Shown: positions 5,363 to 64,000 of the stretch, one piece after another
How the letters are laid out: the number at the start of each line of letters is the position of its first letter
Position numbering within the stretch: position 1 is the first letter of the stretch
Source: Brachybacterium tyrofermentans
GTDB lineage: Bacteria; Actinomycetota; Actinomycetes; Actinomycetales; Dermabacteraceae
Assembly: GCF_014897585.1 (NCBI RefSeq)
Contig: NZ_JABUXW010000010.1
Location: forward strand, 62,001-126,000
Direction of reading: 5' to 3'
DNA length: 64,000 nucleotides
Program-made: the position numbers and the translations under genes
The notes under the pieces: generated by a model
What the model saw: the letters and a program-made list of their open reading frames with translations, nothing else
Database searches by the model: none
Told to the model about the DNA's origin: nothing

Positions 5363-8300
5363 ACATCTCCTCCGCGTCCCGGGTGCGCAGGCGCCAGGGG
5401 ATCGAGATCACGATGGTCAGAGCGAGGACCGCGTACAGCAGGATCTGCCAGACCAGCCGGGCAGGCTGCTCACGGTGGATGTCGATCTCGCCATCGGCTC
5501 CGGACGGGATGGCGAAGCCCTGGGCCCAGTCGCCGACCACGACGGGTTCGAGCTCGGTCCCGTCCAGGGTCGCCCGCCACTGGCTGTCAGCGCGCTCGGA
5601 CAGCACCACGGTGCGCTCGCTGCTGTCCGCGGGGATCCGTCCGGTGGCGTCGATGACGCCGCTGGACAGCGCCACCGGGTCCGCGCCGCCGACGACCACG
5701 GCGCGGGGCGCGGTACCGAGCACACGCCACATGCCGCCCCGGGAGCCTTCGGTGACCTTCTCCAAGGTCGAGGAGGAGTCGAGCGCGCCCACGAGATCCA
5801 GCTGGTCGGCCGGGTCGCCCTCGACGACGACATAGGCGATCGCGAGGGACGCCGCCGCCTGCTCCGGGTCATCGGGCCCGGCGCCCTCCGTCCCGCTGGA
5901 CAGCATCGTGGCGACCGTCGCCCGCAGCGCGCCCTGAGCGGGGTCGTCGTCGACCATCTCGCCGGCGCGGACCGTGTCCACGGCGCGCGCATCGGTGATC
6001 GTGGCGTGCTGGATGACGGTGTCCCCGCCGTGGACGACGAGCCTCGCCTCGATCGTCCCGTCGTCCTGCTGCTCGAGCACGAGCACCCTCGCCCTCGCCT
6101 CGGTCCGGCCCTGATCCGCTGCGGCAGCAGGGACCGCACCACCTTCGACGCGGTCCAGACGGAGCTGGCCGGGGAGCGCCAGGGTCCAGCCGGCGACTGT
6201 CACGACGCAGACCACGGCGACCAGGGCACCTATCACCGTCGTGCCGGCTCGGCGCAGGCCGCCGTCCTCCTCCTCGCGGCGGGCCAGGGCGTCGAAGCTC
6301 GCGGCGGCACCGACCGAGAGGATCAGCAGGATCGCGCTCTGCAGGGCGTTCCAGGGCGCGGGCACCAGCTGGTCGCCGGCGACCGCGACGGCGGTGGAAC
6401 GGGTCAGGAAAAGGGTCATGAGGCCGACGGCGGCCAGAAGGATGCTGAACCGTCCCGCCCTGCCGGCGCTCCCGGCGAGCAGCGGGGAGATGACCGCGGC
6501 GATCACCACGGGTGCCACCGGGATCATCGGCACCAGCAGGGCGCCGGTCGTGCCCACCAGGGGGACGAGCAGCTCCTGCAGGCCGGGGGCGACCGGCCAC
6601 AGCGTGAGCAGGTCGAGCGTGTCGGCGCTGGGAGCCCGGGGCGGGACCCCGCTGACGGCCAGCAGCGTCTCGGGGTGGCCGAGGTAGACGGGGAGGTAGG
6701 GGACGTGCAGCGCGAGCGAGGGCAGCAGGATCCACAGCAGGCGCAGGCGCCGGCCGGGCACGACGACCGCGAGGAGTGCCAGGCCCAGCGCCGCCAGCAG
6801 CACCAGCACCGGGCTCACAGCGCCGATGATCAGGAGCAGGAGCCCGCCACCCGCTGCAGCGGACACGCTGGCCTGGGAGACCTTGTGGGGTAGGCCGATC
6901 GCACGGCCGATGCACAGGGCGAGCAGCGGCAGCAGGGCGTGGACCACCAGCAGGGGCCACGCACCGATCACGAGGGCGGAGATCAGGGGCGGCGCCAGCG
7001 CCCAGAGGGTCGCGAGGGTCAGGCGGGCGCCGACGGCGCGGGTGATCGCGCCGGCCGCCCACCAGGCGGCGAGCGCGCTGGCGGGGATGGCGGCGAAGAT
7101 GAGGACCTCGACGAGGGAGCCCCCGAACGGGAGATGCCCCAGCAGGCGCGTCAGGGGGTCCGCCGGGCCGCGTTCGCCGAGTCCGCCGGGGATCCAGCTG
7201 GACCAAGCTGCTGCCCAGGTTGCCGCCCAGCTCTCGGGCAGCGCGCGCAGGCCGGGGCCGGTCAGCTCGCCGCGGCCGAAGAGACCTCGCAGCGCGAACA
7301 GCCCCAGGACCGTCGAGGCCAGCGCCACGACGACCGTCCAGAGCACGTGGCGGCCGTAGTCGGCATCCTCCACGCCGTGATGGGTGCCGGCGATGCCCCA
7401 GGTCGTACGGCGGACGCGACGTCGGTGGTCGTCATCGGCGAACAGCCGGGTCCAGGTGTCCTCGAGCCAGCGCCGCATGCTGTCGCCGCGCGGCAGGTAC
7501 AGCGGCGCGAGCCGACCGCTCGGCACCCGCGCTCGGCGGCGTGCCGCCCGACTTCGCGAGAGCACACGACCCACGCGCGGCATCGCGGCGGCCCATGCCC
7601 GCAGCTCCATGACGGCACGCCGCGGCTGCGAGGCCGCCACGGAGCCGGCCATGCGCAGCAGCGTCGTCAGGGGCAGCAGGCAGAGCATCACCAGCGCCAT
7701 GACCAGGGACCGGTGCTTCAGCAGCACGAGGATCTGGCCGGTGCGCTGCTCCTGCAGCCGGTCCAGGAGCGGCCGGGTGGGATGGGGCGACACCACGCGT
7801 GCCGCCGACTGGACGGCGACCCGCTCCCCCGATCGCCAGATCCTCCGGCACAGGTCGATCTCCGCCCAGGGCTCGGGGAGGTCAGGATCCAGCCCGCCCA
7901 CATCGCGCAGGGTCTGCTCACGGATCAGCATGCCGGGCAGGGCGACCGCGAGGACGTCCTCGCGCCAATCGGCCTGACCCTGGTCGATCTCCCCGGGATC
8001 GACCCCGGTGATGATGCGCCCGCCGTGGGTCAGGGTGAGGCCGACGTCGACCAGCGCATCCGCGCTCTCCGCCGTCAGGAGGGCTGCATCGCCGGGCTCG
8101 CCGCCGTGCTCGACGGGACGCCCGATCTCGTCGTCGGACTGTTCCGCGCCGGTCGGCGCGGGGTCAGGAGCGGGACGGGTCCTCGGACGAACCCGCTTGG
8201 CGCCGACCACGCCGGTGTTCGGGGAGCTCGCCACCATCTCGAGCTCGCGCTCCAGGGCCGTCCGCCCGGGGGTCCCGGCGTCGGTGACGAACCACAGCCA

Positions 8301-58431: not shown

Positions 58432-59304
58432 ATGACTGAAACCGCCTCTGACCCGTACCTGCTCGCCCGCGACGCCGCTGCCGCGATCGCCGAGGCCAGC
58501 GGGGTGGCCTCCCATGATCTCGCCCTGGTCCTGGGGTCCGGCTGGGCCGGTGCCGCGGACCTGCTCGGGGAGACCGTGTGGCAGGCCGACGCCACCACCA
58601 TCCCGGGCTTCCGCCCGCCGGCCGTCGCCGGCCACATCGGGACACTCCGCTCGATCCGTGTCGAGGGCAGCGATGCCCGTGCACTGGTGCTCGGTGCCCG
58701 CACCCACTTCTACGAAGGGGCCGGGGTCGGCGCCGTGGTGCACGGCGTGCGCACCGCCGCGGCCACGGGGGCCCGCACGATGGTGCTGACCAACGGCTGC
58801 GGCGGCATCGACCCGTCCTGGACCCCGGGCACTCCGGTGCTGATCAGCGACCAGATCAACTTCACGGGTGCCACTCCCCTGTCCGGGGCGAACTTCGTGG
58901 ACCTCACTGATCTGTACACCCCGGCGCTGCGCGACATCGCCCGGGAGGTCGATTCCTCGCTCGACGAGGGCGTCTACATGCAGTTCCAGGGGCCGACGTA
59001 CGAGACCCCCGCCGAGGTGCAGATGGCCCGGACCATCGGAGCGCACCTGGTGGGCATGTCCACCGCGCTCGAGGCGATCGCCGCCCGCGAGGCCGGGATG
59101 GACGTGCTCGGGATCTCCCTGGTCACGAACCTCGCCGCGGGCATCAGCGCCCAGGCGCTCAGCCACGAGGAGGTGCTCGAGGCGGGGCGGGACGCCGGTC
59201 CGCGGATCTCGGCGCTGCTCGCCGAGACGGTCCGTCGCATCACCGGGGGCGCACCGTCCTCGGCCGCTTCCACCTCCACCTCCACCTCCGGGGAGCAGTC
59301 GTGA
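58432..59304 (+). CDS. punA: Purine-nucleoside phosphorylase (trimeric type)
   Basis: A 290-residue PNP that splits inosine and guanosine with phosphate to base and ribose-1-P. It has the phosphate loop VLGSGWAG, LGARTHFYEGAG, NGCGGIDPSWTPGTPVLISD, YMQFQGPTYETPAEVQMART and GMSTALEAIAAREAGMDVLG. The motifs are those of the trimeric family. A Ser/Thr-rich tail (SSAASTSTSTS) ends the protein. The stop overlaps the phosphohexomutase start, which links ribose-1-P release to its mutase. Confidence 0.94.
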   Translation: MTETASDPYLLARDAAAAIAEASGVASHDLALVLGSGWAGAADLLGETVWQADATTIPGFRPPAVAGHIGTLRSIRVEGSDARALVLGARTHFYEGAGVGAVVHGVRTAAATGARTMVLTNGCGGIDPSWTPGTPVLISDQINFTGATPLSGANFVDLTDLYTPALRDIAREVDSSLDEGVYMQFQGPTYETPAEVQMARTIGAHLVGMSTALEAIAAREAGMDVLGISLVTNLAAGISAQALSHEEVLEAGRDAGPRISALLAETVRRITGGAPSSAASTSTSTSGEQS

Positions 59305-61022
59305 TGACCGCGCTGGACCAGGCCCTGCGCAGGCGCTCCGAGGCCTGGCTCGCGGACGATCCCGATCCGGCCACGCGCTCCGCTCTCAGCTCGCTGCTCG
59401 AGCAGGCCGTCTCCGGCGGAGAGGCCGCGATCGACGAGATCGCCGATGCCTTCTCCGGTGACCTCGAGTTCGGCACGGCCGGTCTGCGGGGCCGGATGGG
59501 TCCCGGCCCGAACCGGATGAACCTCGCGGTGGTCTCCCGCGCCGCCCGTGGTCTCGCCGACCATCTGCTGGGCGATCTCGAGCTCGCGGCGCCCCTGGTG
59601 GTGATCGGGTACGACGCCCGCTACAACTCGCAGGACTTCGCGCTGCGCTCCGCCGCGATCATGACGGCGGCCGGCTGCCGCGTGCAGCTGCTGGAGCGCT
59701 TCGGCCCCACACCGCTGGTCGCCTTCGGCGTGCGCCAGCTGGGCGCCGACGCGGGCATCGTGGTCACGGCGAGCCACAACCCGCCGGCCGACAACGGCTA
59801 CAAGGTGTATCTCGGAGGCCGGGCCCAGGAGTCCGACGGACAGGGCGTCCAGATCGTGCCACCCTCGGACGGGCAGATCGCCGCTCGCATCGCCGCCGTC
59901 GGCCCCGTGCTGGACATCCCGGTGGCCGACGCCGGCTGGGAGCTGCTGGGGGAGCAGCTGCGCGAGGACTATCTCGCGGCTATCTGCGCCCTTCCCGATC
60001 TCCAGGGGCCCCGCGACGTGCGGATCGTGCACACGGCGATGCATGGCGTGGGCACCGAGACGGCGCTCGCGGCGCTGCACCGCAGCGGCTTCGCCGAGGT
60101 GCACACGGTCGCCAAGCAGGCCGACCCTGATCCGGACTTCCCCACGGTCGCCTTCCCCAACCCCGAGGAGCCCGGAGCGATCGATCTGGCGCTCGAGCTG
60201 GCCCGCACGGTCGAGGCCGACGTCGTGATCGCGAACGACCCCGACGCCGATCGCTGTGCCGCAGCCGTGCTCGACCCGCATCTGGGCGACTGGCGGATGC
60301 TCACCGGTGACGAGCTGGGAGTTCTGCTCGGCGACCATCTGATCCGTCGGCACGGCTATCGCGGGGCCTTCGCCCGCTCGATCGTCTCCAGCCGCTGGCT
60401 GGGAAAGATCGCCGAGGCCGTCGGGGTGGACTCCCCCACCACGCTGACGGGCTTCAAGTGGATCGCCCGTGCCCCCGGCATCGTCTTCGGCTACGAGGAG
60501 GCGATCGGCTACTGCGTGCTGCCCGAGGTGGTGCGGGACAAGGACGGCCTCTCCGCAGGGCTGATGGTCGCGGAGATGGCGGCTCTCGCGAAGGCGGAGG
60601 GCACCACGCTGATCGGCCGGCTCGATGAGCTCGCCGCGGCGCACGGTCTGTTCGCCACCTCGCAGCTGTCCATCCGGGTGGAGGACCTCGCGCAGATCCC
60701 CGCCATGATGCAGCAGCTGCGCTCCGCCCCGCCCACCGCGCTGCTGGGCTCCGAGGTGGTCACCACCCAGGACCTGTCCCAGGGCTCGGTCGAGTCGACG
60801 GGCCTGCCGCCCACCGAGGGGATGCTGCTGCTCAGCGCCGAGGACACCCGCGTGGTGGTGCGCCCCTCGGGCACCGAGCCGAAGCTCAAGTGCTATCTGG
60901 AGGTCGTCCAGGACGTTCCCGCGGGAACGTCCGCGCCGGAGATGGCAACGATCCGCCAGCATGCCGGCGAGCGCCTGGCGCAGCTGAAGGACGAGCTGCG
61001 CGGGGTGCTCGGTCAGGCCTGA
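59301..61022 (+). CDS. Phosphohexomutase/phosphopentomutase (PgcA/PmmB type)
   Basis: A 573-residue alpha-D-phosphohexomutase: LEFGTAGLRGRMGPGPNRMN, the catalytic serine loop VVTASHNPPADNGYKVYLGG, metal site IANDPDADRCAAAV, sugar loop FGYEEAIGYCV and phosphate-binding RPSGTEPKLKCYLEV. Its place after PNP and before deoC suggests that it converts (deoxy)ribose-1-P to the 5-phosphate, besides glucose phosphates. The mycobacterial counterpart is Rv3308 (pmmB). GTG 59301 or ATG 59304 may start translation. It is distinct from manB at 1026. Confidence 0.9.
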   Translation: MMTALDQALRRRSEAWLADDPDPATRSALSSLLEQAVSGGEAAIDEIADAFSGDLEFGTAGLRGRMGPGPNRMNLAVVSRAARGLADHLLGDLELAAPLVVIGYDARYNSQDFALRSAAIMTAAGCRVQLLERFGPTPLVAFGVRQLGADAGIVVTASHNPPADNGYKVYLGGRAQESDGQGVQIVPPSDGQIAARIAAVGPVLDIPVADAGWELLGEQLREDYLAAICALPDLQGPRDVRIVHTAMHGVGTETALAALHRSGFAEVHTVAKQADPDPDFPTVAFPNPEEPGAIDLALELARTVEADVVIANDPDADRCAAAVLDPHLGDWRMLTGDELGVLLGDHLIRRHGYRGAFARSIVSSRWLGKIAEAVGVDSPTTLTGFKWIARAPGIVFGYEEAIGYCVLPEVVRDKDGLSAGLMVAEMAALAKAEGTTLIGRLDELAAAHGLFATSQLSIRVEDLAQIPAMMQQLRSAPPTALLGSEVVTTQDLSQGSVESTGLPPTEGMLLLSAEDTRVVVRPSGTEPKLKCYLEVVQDVPAGTSAPEMATIRQHAGERLAQLKDELRGVLGQA

Positions 61023-61171: not shown

Positions 61172-61837
61172 TCAGTACCCGGTGCCGGTGCCGCCGTCGA
61201 GGATGGCCTTCGAGGAGGACAGGCCCAGGCGGCTCGCACCGGCGGCGACCATCGCCTCGGCTGCCTCGCGGGTTCGGATACCGCCGGAGGCCTTCACGCC
61301 GAGTCGGTCGCCCACGGTGGCGCGCATCAGCTGCACGGCGTGCTCGCTCGCGCCCCCGGCGGGGTGGAAGCCCGTGGAGGTCTTCACGAAGTCGGCGCCG
61401 GCGCGCTCCGCGGCCTCGCACACGCCGACGATCTGCTCGTCCTCCAGCGCGGCGGATTCGATGATCACCTTCAGCACGACGGGCGTCGGAGCGGCGTCGC
61501 GCACGGCGCGGATCTCGGCCTCGACGGCGGCGAAGTCCCCGGAGCGGGCGAGGCCCACGTTGAGGACCATGTCGACCTCGTCGGCGCCCTTGGCCACGGA
61601 GTCCGCGGCCTCGGCGGCCTTGATCGCCGGGGCGTGCTGGCCGGACGGGAAGCCACACACGGTGGCGACCTTGACCGTGGTCTCCACGGGCAGCATCGAC
61701 GGGGAGACGCAGATCGAGTAGGTGCCGAGCTGCTCGGCCTCGCGGGCGAGCGCGTCGACATCCGCGCGGGTCGCCTCGGGCTTCAGGAGGGTGTGATCGA
61801 TGAGGGGTGCGAGCTGTGCGCGATCGAGAGTGGTCAT
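61172..61837 (-). CDS. deoC: Deoxyribose-phosphate aldolase
   Basis: A 221-residue class I aldolase that cleaves deoxyribose-5-P to acetaldehyde and glyceraldehyde-3-P. It has [58 protein letters not shown], the Schiff-base segment [16 protein letters not shown] and [20 protein letters not shown]. Length and motifs are complete. The ATG at 61837 is chosen by family alignment. It completes the nucleoside breakdown route with the PNP, mutase and thymidine phosphorylase genes nearby. Confidence 0.95.
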
Positions 61838-61929
61838 AGGGAGATCTTCCCATGAGCGACGCTCTGAGGAGGCCATCACAGGTGCGCCCCGATGCCCGTG
61901 AGGCCGCCCTCCGCGCTCCCCCGAGCGCC

Positions 61930-61935
61930 TAGAAT
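61930..61935 (+). promoter_or_regulatory. Candidate -10 box (TAGAAT), leaderless
   Basis: TAGAAT ends 8 nt before the GTG at 61944, with no Shine-Dalgarno in between. Confidence 0.5.
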
Positions 61936-61943
61936 CGGCGGTC

Positions 61944-63005
61944 GTGACCACTGCTCCCGCCCCCTCCCGCGCGCCCCGCCGCATCGTCCTGCTCGCCGGC
62001 CCGTCAGGGAGCGGCAAGGGTGTCATGTCACGACGATCCGGGCTTCCGGTCCTGGGGCTCGACGACTTCTATCGCGAGCACGACGATCCCGGCCTCCCCC
62101 GCCGCTTCGGCATCGTCGACTGGGACGATCCCGCCTCATGGAACGCCGGCGCCGCTCTCGAGGCGCTGACGGCTCTCGCCCATGACGGCGCCGCCGAAGT
62201 CCCGGAGTACTCGATCTCCGCCTCGCGCCGCACCGGGACCACGCAGGTCGTGGCCGGGGACGCGCCGCTGATCATCGCCGAGGGAATCTTCGCCGCCGAG
62301 CTGATCGCCCCGCTCGCGGCGGCCGGCCTCCTGGCCGACGCCATCGTGCTGCACCGCCCCACCCCCGTCGTGTTCGCTCTGCGGCTCGTGAGGGATCTGC
62401 GCCAGAACCGCAAGCCTCCCCTGACCCTGCTGCGCCGGGGATGGGGCCTGGCTCGGGACCAGCGCGCCGATCTCGAGGGCTGGAGCCGAGCCGGGATGCG
62501 TCCCGAAGGACTGCACGCCGGGACCCGCTGGCTGCATCGGCTCACCGGCGTCGCGGACTGCGAGCAGCGGCACGCGCACGCCGCACGCGCCGGGGACGTC
62601 CTGCGGATCACGGCGGTGTGCTTCCTGCGCGAGGGGACGCACGGCACCGAGGTGCTGGCGGTGCGCAAGCGCGGCACCGGCTCCTATATGCAGGTCGGCG
62701 GCAAGCTCGAGGCCGACGAGAGCGCTCAGGAGGCGGCGATCCGCGAGGTCGCCGAGGAGATCGGCGTGACGCTGGCTCCCGAGGACCTCGCGCCGCTGGG
62801 CGACTTCGAGGCGGTCGCCGCGAACGAGCCGAACACGATGGTGTGCTCGACGGTGTTCATCTGTCGCACGCCGCTGCCGGAGCCGATCATCGTGCAGGCC
62901 GAGCTCGCCGATCACCGCTGGGTGCAGATCGGCGAGCCCGGCACCGGCGCCCGGCTGGCGCCGCTCATGGTCGAGCACATCCTGCCGGCGCTGCGGGCGC
63001 TGTAG
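61944..63005 (+). CDS. Uridine-kinase-like P-loop domain fused to a Nudix hydrolase
   Basis: A 353-residue single frame with two domains. Residues 1-215 resemble the uridine kinase-like proteins of actinobacteria: [42 protein letters not shown] and [20 protein letters not shown]. The P-loop reads GPSGSGKG (19-26), so the Ser/Thr that normally binds Mg-nucleotide is Gly26. Residues 225-350 form a Nudix hydrolase: its box runs from Gly253 through the REVAEEIGV end, with all conserved Glu residues. The neighbouring deoA, deoC and PNP genes suggest nucleoside or nucleotide metabolism. The Nudix half looks active; kinase activity is doubtful. Confidence 0.82.
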
Positions 63006-63054: not shown

Positions 63055-63104
63055 GCTCAGCACTCAGCACTCAGCACTCAGGCAATGCGGTCAGACGGAT
63101 GCGG
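63055..63104. repeat. Tandem CACTCAG heptamers and ATGCGGTCAG repeats at a convergent junction
   Basis: CACTCAG occurs at 63061, 63068 and 63075 (after a partial copy at 63055), followed by ATGCGGTCAG-type units at about 63085 and 63099 that run into the stop codon of the thymidine phosphorylase gene at 63105. A CCCGGG pair (63008/63036) before the repeats may form a terminator stem. Confidence 0.75.
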
Positions 63105-64000
63105 TCAGGCGATGCGGTCCATCACGATCTTCCGCGCGCGGACCGTGGTGCCGGGGGCGGCGAGGGTCCAGGACCCGTCGATCGACTCGAGCGCCCGGGG
63201 CATCCGCTCCGGGGTGTCGGTGTGCAGGCGGGCCAGGACGTCGCCGGCCTTCACCTCGTCGCCGATGTGCGCTTCGATCTCCACGCCGGCGGCGGCCTGC
63301 ACGGCCTCCCCCGGGCGGGAGCGGCCGGCCCCCAGACGCCAGGCGGCCACGCCCACGCCCATCGCGTCGAGACCGGTGACGACACCGTCCTCGGTGGCCC
63401 GGAGATCCTCGACGTGCTTCGCGACCGGCAGCGGGGCGTCGACGTCCCCGCCCTGGGCGGAGATCATCGCGCGCCAGGAGTCCATCGCCCGACCGTCGGC
63501 CAGTGCGGCCTCCACGTCGGCATCGTGCACCCCGGCCGCATCCAGCATCTCGCGGGCCAGTGCGCAGGTGAGCTCCACGATGTCCGCCGGGCCGCCGCCG
63601 GCGAGCACCTCGAGGGATTCGCGCACCTCGAGGCCGTTGCCCGCGGTGCGTCCCAGCGGTGCGGACATGTCGGTCAGCAGCGCGACGGTGTGCACCCCGG
63701 CGTCGGTGCCGAGCTCCACCATGGTGCGGGCGAGCTCGCGCGCATCCGCCTCGTCCTTCATGAAGGCACCGGCTCCGGTCTTCACGTCCAGAGTCAGCGC
63801 GGCTGTGCCCTCGGCGATCTTCTTGGACATGATGGAGCTGGCGATCAGCGGGATCGCCTCGACGGTCCCGGTGATGTCGCGCAGGGCGTAGAGCTTCTTG
63901 TCGGCCGGGGCGAGGCCCGAGCCGGCGGCGCAGATCACGGCGCCGGCGCTCTCGAGCTGAGCCATCATCTCGGCGTTGCTGAGGTCCGCGCGCCACCCGG
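63105..64000 (-). CDS. deoA: Thymidine phosphorylase (N-terminus outside window)
   Basis: The C-terminal 298 residues of a pyrimidine nucleoside phosphorylase; the frame runs off the window edge. GLAPADKKLYALRDITGTVE is the family signature; IASSIMSKKIAEGTAALTLD holds the catalytic Ser and Lys, and LDVKTGAGAFMKD follows. The C-terminal domain has GMGVGVAAWRLGAGRSRPGE and a swivelling hammerhead-like end (AHIGDEVKAGDVLARLH). It splits thymidine to thymine and deoxyribose-1-P, feeding the mutase and deoC. The nearest internal Met is not the start, because conserved sequence (RADLSNAEMM) continues upstream. Confidence 0.93.
   Translation of the reverse strand, partial: GWRADLSNAEMMAQLESAGAVICAAGSGLAPADKKLYALRDITGTVEAIPLIASSIMSKKIAEGTAALTLDVKTGAGAFMKDEADARELARTMVELGTDAGVHTVALLTDMSAPLGRTAGNGLEVRESLEVLAGGGPADIVELTCALAREMLDAAGVHDADVEAALADGRAMDSWRAMISAQGGDVDAPLPVAKHVEDLRATEDGVVTGLDAMGVGVAAWRLGAGRSRPGEAVQAAAGVEIEAHIGDEVKAGDVLARLHTDTPERMPRALESIDGSWTLAAPGTTVRARKIVMDRIA

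Follow-up and report, generated by a model that had tools for sequence, protein, structure and literature searches.

The window analysed here is a stretch of 64,000 nucleotides from Brachybacterium tyrofermentans, and its last part holds a purine nucleoside phosphorylase family protein (PF01048; 58423..59304, plus strand), a phosphohexomutase/pentomutase-type protein (PGM_PMM; 59301..61022, plus strand), the deoxyribose-phosphate aldolase DeoC (61172..61837, minus strand; TIGR00126, 219.6 bits), a fusion gene that joins a uridine-kinase-like domain to a Nudix domain (61944..63005, plus strand), and the thymidine phosphorylase DeoA (63105..64000, minus strand; NF004490, 370 bits). DeoC is the divergent neighbour of the fusion gene, separated from it by an intergenic region of 106 bp (61838–61943), and DeoA is its convergent neighbour, which runs past the end of the window and has a full length of 442 aa at locus L135. 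Further along the contig, past the window end, lie an ORF which we take from its motifs to be cytidine-deaminase (Cdd)-like, two BPD_transp_2 permeases, and an ABC ATPase. In the gap between the fusion gene and DeoA, the 7-base unit cactcag is repeated three times in tandem (63061–63081).

The fusion gene is one uninterrupted ORF of 353 aa with a GTG start, as the preliminary description had stated. Its N-terminal part is a P-loop uridine-cytidine-kinase-like domain (residues 10–207; 61971..62564, plus strand), assigned from the predicted structure and its comparison with the PDB, as well as from the profile match of unfused relatives to UCK1/2 and Thermus thermophilus UCK; its C-terminal part is a Nudix domain (residues 217–353; 62592..63002, plus strand), assigned from Pfam, the predicted structure, and PDB comparison. 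The AlphaFold2 model, built on an alignment of 45 rows (the window protein, 22 fused loci, and 22 of 57 unfused loci, with L113 excluded because of a stop in its matched range), has a mean pLDDT of 90.3 and a pTM of 0.62, so that both domains are confidently predicted and their relative placement less so. In this model, residues ≈ 10–209 match the folds of human UCK1/2 and of T. thermophilus UCK with Z scores of 17–19 and an rmsd of about 3 Å, the match spanning the whole kinase domain (≈ 190 residues) at 14–21% identity, and residues 217–353 superpose on MutT/Nudix proteins with Z up to 17.6. The NUDIX family of Pfam (PF00293) matches residues 221–332 (E 9.9e-13; 48.7 bits against a gathering cut-off of 21.1), and this match together with the confident predicted fold led us to reject a chance ORF.

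The fusion is a feature of the family Dermabacteraceae. A match was found in 45 of the 47 genomes searched from the same family, and 44 of them have the two halves within a single open frame; in four of the 44 that frame is covered by two separate matches, and identity to the window fusion is 48–82% in the 39 other genomes with one alignment across both halves. The named records carrying the fusion belong to Brachybacterium, Dermabacter, and Helcobacillus, plus one Actinomycetales bin. A genome of the same genus, G026, has only the kinase half, with the sequence GKG kept in its P-loop: the frame stops shortly past the kinase domain, and behind it lies only a short match to the C-terminus of the Nudix domain (38 columns, E 4.8e-5), which suggests that an internal deletion has removed most of that domain (L136, about 6250–6957). 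Two genomes, G024 and G066, gave no match. The G024 contig stops ≈ 300 bases upstream of DeoC, and a tblastn search of these bases revealed no kinase start (the best local match, E 0.064, lies elsewhere); the gene may thus be truly missing or may fall in a gap. G066 (L154), the sole genome of its genus in the family set, has DeoC and lacks a match to the fusion.

Outside the family the picture is different. In a class-wide sample of 394 genomes, with five candidates scored per genome, 133 had a match, and no listed match outside Dermabacteraceae spans both halves; some of these genomes have, among the matches listed, one to the kinase and one to the Nudix half that lie far apart. The unfused actinobacterial relatives of the kinase half (Isoptericola, Myceligenerans, Nocardioides, Streptomyces, and others) belong to the same tree family and are 39–61% identical in the best segment, and each is a separate gene. 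We also looked for a neighbouring Nudix gene that might predate the fusion, and a Nudix ORF related to that of the window was found beside the unfused kinase in none of 65 loci (E 1e-3, flanks of up to 4 kb, one place having been fetched twice). The refuting condition set in the preliminary description, that homologues are two separate genes, holds outside the family only. For the comparisons below, 37 distinct rows represent the 57 fused-clade loci, and 64 represent the 65 unfused ones; loci added later brought the fused clade to 45 distinct rows, 44 fused and one kinase-only.

The genes beside the fusion are also conserved. Of the 27 fused-clade loci with wide flanks (three places fetched twice included), 24 have DeoC together with DeoA, and the other three have one of the two. 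A purine nucleoside phosphorylase, phosphomutase, DeoC, or DeoA lies nearby at 32 of the 65 unfused loci (which count one place twice), and DeoC or DeoA at 29; all of these are raw counts of matches to the window proteins at E 1e-10 within the fetched flanks. Since nucleoside genes also lie beside unfused loci, the link to nucleosides appears to be older than the fusion, and in G036 an unfused kinase and DeoC lie close together on opposite strands, so this arrangement, too, may predate the fusion.

In the C-terminal half, the Nudix box (GX5EX7REUXEEXG, residues 253–274; 62700..62765, plus strand) is complete, extending in the window protein to the full GX5EX7REUXEEXGU pattern, and the preliminary description was right to call its residues intact. 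The RE..EE core is kept in 44/44 distinct fused rows and the final glycine in 31/44. The last glycine is replaced by aspartate, asparagine, or histidine, with RE..EE intact, in the other 13/44 rows (L006, L019, L021, L022, L026, L029, L030, L033, L034, L066, L067, L146, and L148).

The kinase half, by comparison with curated profiles, is a distant member of its class: Pfam PRK/uridine kinase matches the fusion protein below threshold (17.2 bits, cut-off 22), and NCBIfam udk (TIGR00235) reaches 28.3 bits against a curated cut-off of 220.3, so that “uridine-kinase-like” is apt and “uridine kinase” too strong. A Udk scoring over the curated cut-off was found in 0/36 genomes of the same genus. Two other P-loop proteins of the B. 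tyrofermentans genome are touched by the udk profile; one belongs to a nucleoside/nucleotide kinase family (over its cut-off), and the second has no match over any cut-off.

The active-site residues are conserved nevertheless when aligned with UCK2. Asp40 (62061..62063, plus strand), invariant in fused and unfused rows, aligns with the aspartate of the UCK2 DsFY motif, which we take to be the catalytic base; DWD (residues 59–61; 62118..62126, plus strand), likewise invariant, aligns with the UCK2 FDHP region; and in the LID segment (residues 147–157; 62382..62414, plus strand) Arg147, Arg150, Asp151, Arg156, and Lys157 do not vary. The profile alignment further pairs E113 with the EG-motif glutamate of UCK2, and R147/R150 as well as R156/K157 with basic residues of its LID, positions that presumably act as the second acid and as the basic residues of the LID. 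The catalytic aspartate, the EG acid, and the LID basic residues expected of UCK/PRK-like kinases are therefore all present, and D40, E113, R147, R150, R156, and K157 are identical in every one of the 37 distinct rows of the fused clade and in no fewer than 62 of the 64 unfused ones. Agreement on one residue across 95% or more of the rows, in the fused-clade set (37) as well as in the unfused set (64), extends to, among others, G19, S21, G22, G24, and K25 in the P-loop, as well as L39, D40, F42, Y43, P52, D59, W60, D61, W66, P87, Y89, A112, E113, G114, F116, R147, R150, D151, R156, K157, and L162.

Fused and unfused clades differ at other positions, for example 90, 135, 143, 170, and 185. Residue 90, near the acceptor motif PxY, changes from Asp/Glu to Ser with the fused clade. 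Ser94 aligns with a histidine of UCK2 which we take to be the base reader, and the 64 unfused rows have Ser (46), Asn (15), or Asp (3) there; the whole family hence departs from UCK2 at this site, and uridine is not established as the substrate. The restriction of T. thermophilus UCK to cytidine reportedly rests on a single amino acid.

A further departure from known uridine-cytidine kinases lies in the Walker A motif, which reads GPSGSGKG (residues 19–26; 61998..62021, plus strand), with Gly26 (codon GGT) in place of the Ser/Thr of the canonical Udk pattern GxxxxGK[S/T]. The preliminary description had pointed to this change, and it is not an error; GKG is found in every copy examined from the same genus. 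Nor is GKG specific to the B. tyrofermentans genome, an idea that we rejected since it is lineage-wide in the fused rows: aligned across homologues, it is found in 42 of the 44 fused genomes of the family (GKS in the other two) and in 43 of the 45 distinct fused-clade rows (GKS in two), while all 64 distinct unfused rows have GKS (48) or GKT (16). Close relatives keep GKS only in the sense that one other fused genus of the family does so (L142 and L143, from genomes G067 and G068). Its serine codon, AGT, is one step from the glycine codon GGT, and the unfused serine codons are TCN in 45/48.

A glycine after the Walker lysine is not foreign to P-loop kinases. In the same genome, adenylate kinase reads GPPGAGKGTQ and Cmk reads GPAGSGKST. 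The fusion protein does not have the GKGT motif of the GKG nucleotide monophosphate kinases, however: its residue 27 is valine, the clade mostly has Val, Glu, Leu, or Met there, and threonine is absent from the common states. Excerpts from PMC9599734 give glycines in several NMP-kinase families as the commonest exceptions to Ser/Thr after the Walker lysine, with water as the fourth magnesium ligand in such families, and explain these exceptions by acceptors requiring no deprotonation; the same excerpts mention loss of activity on replacement of the Ser/Thr. Taken together, the loss of activity and the argument from the acceptor mean that GKG could cripple the phosphorylation of a nucleoside. 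We looked for a compensating Ser/Thr elsewhere, among the positions with the greatest differences between the clades, and rejected positions 32 and 90, which are serine in most GKG rows yet do not track Gly26, as position 90 is also serine in the GKS fused genus and position 32 is leucine in L149, a GKG row. Position 143 is not coupled to Gly26 either, being threonine in L149 and valine in the other 42 GKG rows.

In the trees the fused rows fall into a single clade, with support of 100/98 for the kinase half and 99/98 with the Nudix columns included, and in the kinase-half tree (midpoint root) this clade adjoins 24 unfused rows holding most Cellulomonadaceae and Promicromonosporaceae. When the Walker residue is left in, the kinase-half tree has L149 branching first and the GKS genus second (99/89); when it is masked, in a tree of both halves that took in 20 of the 64 unfused rows, L149 and the GKS genus come out side by side, though weakly supported (77/42). 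Placing every GKG row in a single clade gives a tree that was not rejected (AU p 0.40). Because the basal order of L149 and the GKS genus varies, the trees do not show an origin of GKG together with the fusion in a single event, and the GKS genus may keep the older state or may have returned to serine. On this basis one loss, a loss followed by a return to Ser, and two losses are all possible.

Selection on the fused kinase half resembles selection on its unfused relatives. In pairs hand-picked as close pairs, dN/dS of the kinase half ranges from 0.05 to 0.37 in 19 fused pairs (median 0.13) and from 0.09 to 0.18 in seven unfused pairs (median 0.12), with 5/19 fused values above the unfused maximum. 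In 16 of 18 fused pairs, dN/dS is lower for the kinase half than for its Nudix partner, the Nudix half of L142/L143 having been left out. The GKG kinase half that stands without most of its Nudix partner, in G026, has a dN/dS of 0.14 to its nearest fused relative and 0.36 to a farther one.

As the rest of the active site is intact, the fusion is probably a working double enzyme, not a dead remnant, despite the usual loss of the magnesium-binding residue. We favour the reading, with a probability of roughly 55%, that it is a bifunctional nucleotide-salvage enzyme of Dermabacteraceae in which both halves are catalytic, serving the nucleoside uptake and catabolism locus in which it lies. The N-terminal half would be a phosphotransferase of the uridine-cytidine-kinase fold that still binds MgATP by means of its P-loop with Lys25. 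For want of the protein hydroxyl that normally contacts magnesium, a water molecule would probably take its place, as in the glycine-bearing nucleotide monophosphate kinases. The chemistry would be carried out by Asp40, Glu113, and the LID arginines and lysine, probably on a nucleoside (nucleoside + ATP to NMP). The C-terminal half would be a Nudix pyrophosphohydrolase, probably producing the monophosphate from an NDP, an NTP, or an NDP-X, so that both halves would yield NMP within a locus of nucleoside uptake and breakdown. The fusion and its conservation, the conserved residues, the selection, and the locus are what we observed; that both halves are catalysts, what they act on, and any coupling between them we infer. 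The fold alone is no proof of activity, as the excerpts of PMC10248530 describe a multidomain uridine-kinase-like protein of Thermotoga maritima without NMP-forming activity.

That protein is also a possible precedent for the proposal, made in the preliminary description, that the P-loop domain has been left with ligand binding alone. The P-loop half would then be a pseudokinase, binding ATP, a nucleoside, or a nucleotide and regulating or targeting the Nudix half, and a second possible precedent is found in plant TTM1/2, described as having a uridine kinase domain beside a pyrophosphatase domain. The magnesium-coordinating Ser/Thr is indeed gone in 42/44 fused genomes and several clade-specific changes accompany its loss, but we do not favour a pseudokinase: the residues aligned with the base, the second acid, and the LID show no decay, and the median dN/dS is close to that of the unfused relatives (0.13 vs 0.12). 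Furthermore, G026 has kept its GKG half after the apparent loss of most of the Nudix half, and one fused genus has serine at the position in question, encoded by a codon one step from glycine, possibly as a return and possibly as the ancestral state. GKG is also found in working nucleotide kinases (excerpts of PMC9599734), as well as in the adenylate kinase motif of the same genome.

Less probable still is a switch of acceptor, in which the loss of Ser/Thr would mark a change from a hydroxyl to a phosphate, that is, from nucleoside to NMP, with the Nudix half supplying the monophosphate. It would fit the glycine following the lysine in several NMP-kinase families, whose acceptor requires no deprotonation (excerpts of PMC9599734), and the change of residue 90 near PxY to serine; against it, Asp40, which a phosphate acceptor would not need, is invariant, DWD and PxY are unchanged, and residue 90 is serine in the GKS fused genus as well and so does not follow Gly26. 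Finally, a local frameshift, sequencing error, misassembly, or chance joining can be discounted almost entirely, because one open frame is found in 44 of the 47 genomes of the family and the same join recurs in Brachybacterium, Dermabacter, and Helcobacillus records.

Each half of the putative double enzyme belongs to a known fold family, and the combination is new relative to the literature searched: in agreement with the preliminary description, which knew of no such protein, we found no description of a kinase/Nudix combination among the matches listed in open-licence PMC papers, and the main text of a Nudix-clan review (PMC5389931) has no occurrence of “kinase”. The nearest architectures are those of plant TTM1/TTM2 and the NadM-Nudix proteins. 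TTM1/TTM2 likewise join a uridine-kinase domain to a pyrophosphate-cleaving domain (a sequence match to TTM1 was seen), but they are eukaryotic and the partner is a triphosphate-tunnel domain, not a Nudix domain. The NadM-type NMN adenylyltransferase/Nudix fusions (2qjt, 2r5w, and 2qjo in the fold search) have an enzyme of nucleotide metabolism and a Nudix domain in one chain, the partner being, by the entry titles, an adenylyltransferase and not a P-loop kinase.

If the proposed double function is true, the fusion would be an unusual wiring of nucleoside salvage to nucleotide clean-up in a single polypeptide. It is possible, though we hold this tentatively, that a lineage of hydroxyl-phosphorylating P-loop kinases has come to do without the nearly universal Walker A Ser/Thr, either by holding magnesium through water or by moving from a nucleoside to a nucleotide acceptor, and has been coupled to a Nudix domain that makes its product or its substrate. 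The role of this Ser/Thr is a question raised in the excerpts of PMC9599734, where glycine at the position is described for NMP kinases, and the fusion is thus a natural test of it: one fused enzyme exists in a GKG and a GKS version, a natural pair for telling whether the residue takes part in catalysis or only holds magnesium.

Compared with its closest known systems, the fusion shares with human UCK1/2 and T. thermophilus UCK the fold and the aligned Asp, acceptor, EG, and LID motifs, and differs from them in the glycine at the Walker Ser/Thr, in Ser94 for the UCK2 histidine, and in its Nudix partner. With adenylate kinase and other GKG nucleotide monophosphate kinases, which are a different family, it shares the glycine after the Walker lysine, and only there is that glycine followed by threonine. 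The C-terminal half shares its fold and a complete Nudix box with MutT-type Nudix hydrolases, and its nearest separate Nudix relatives, among those listed, are about 40–51% identical to it.
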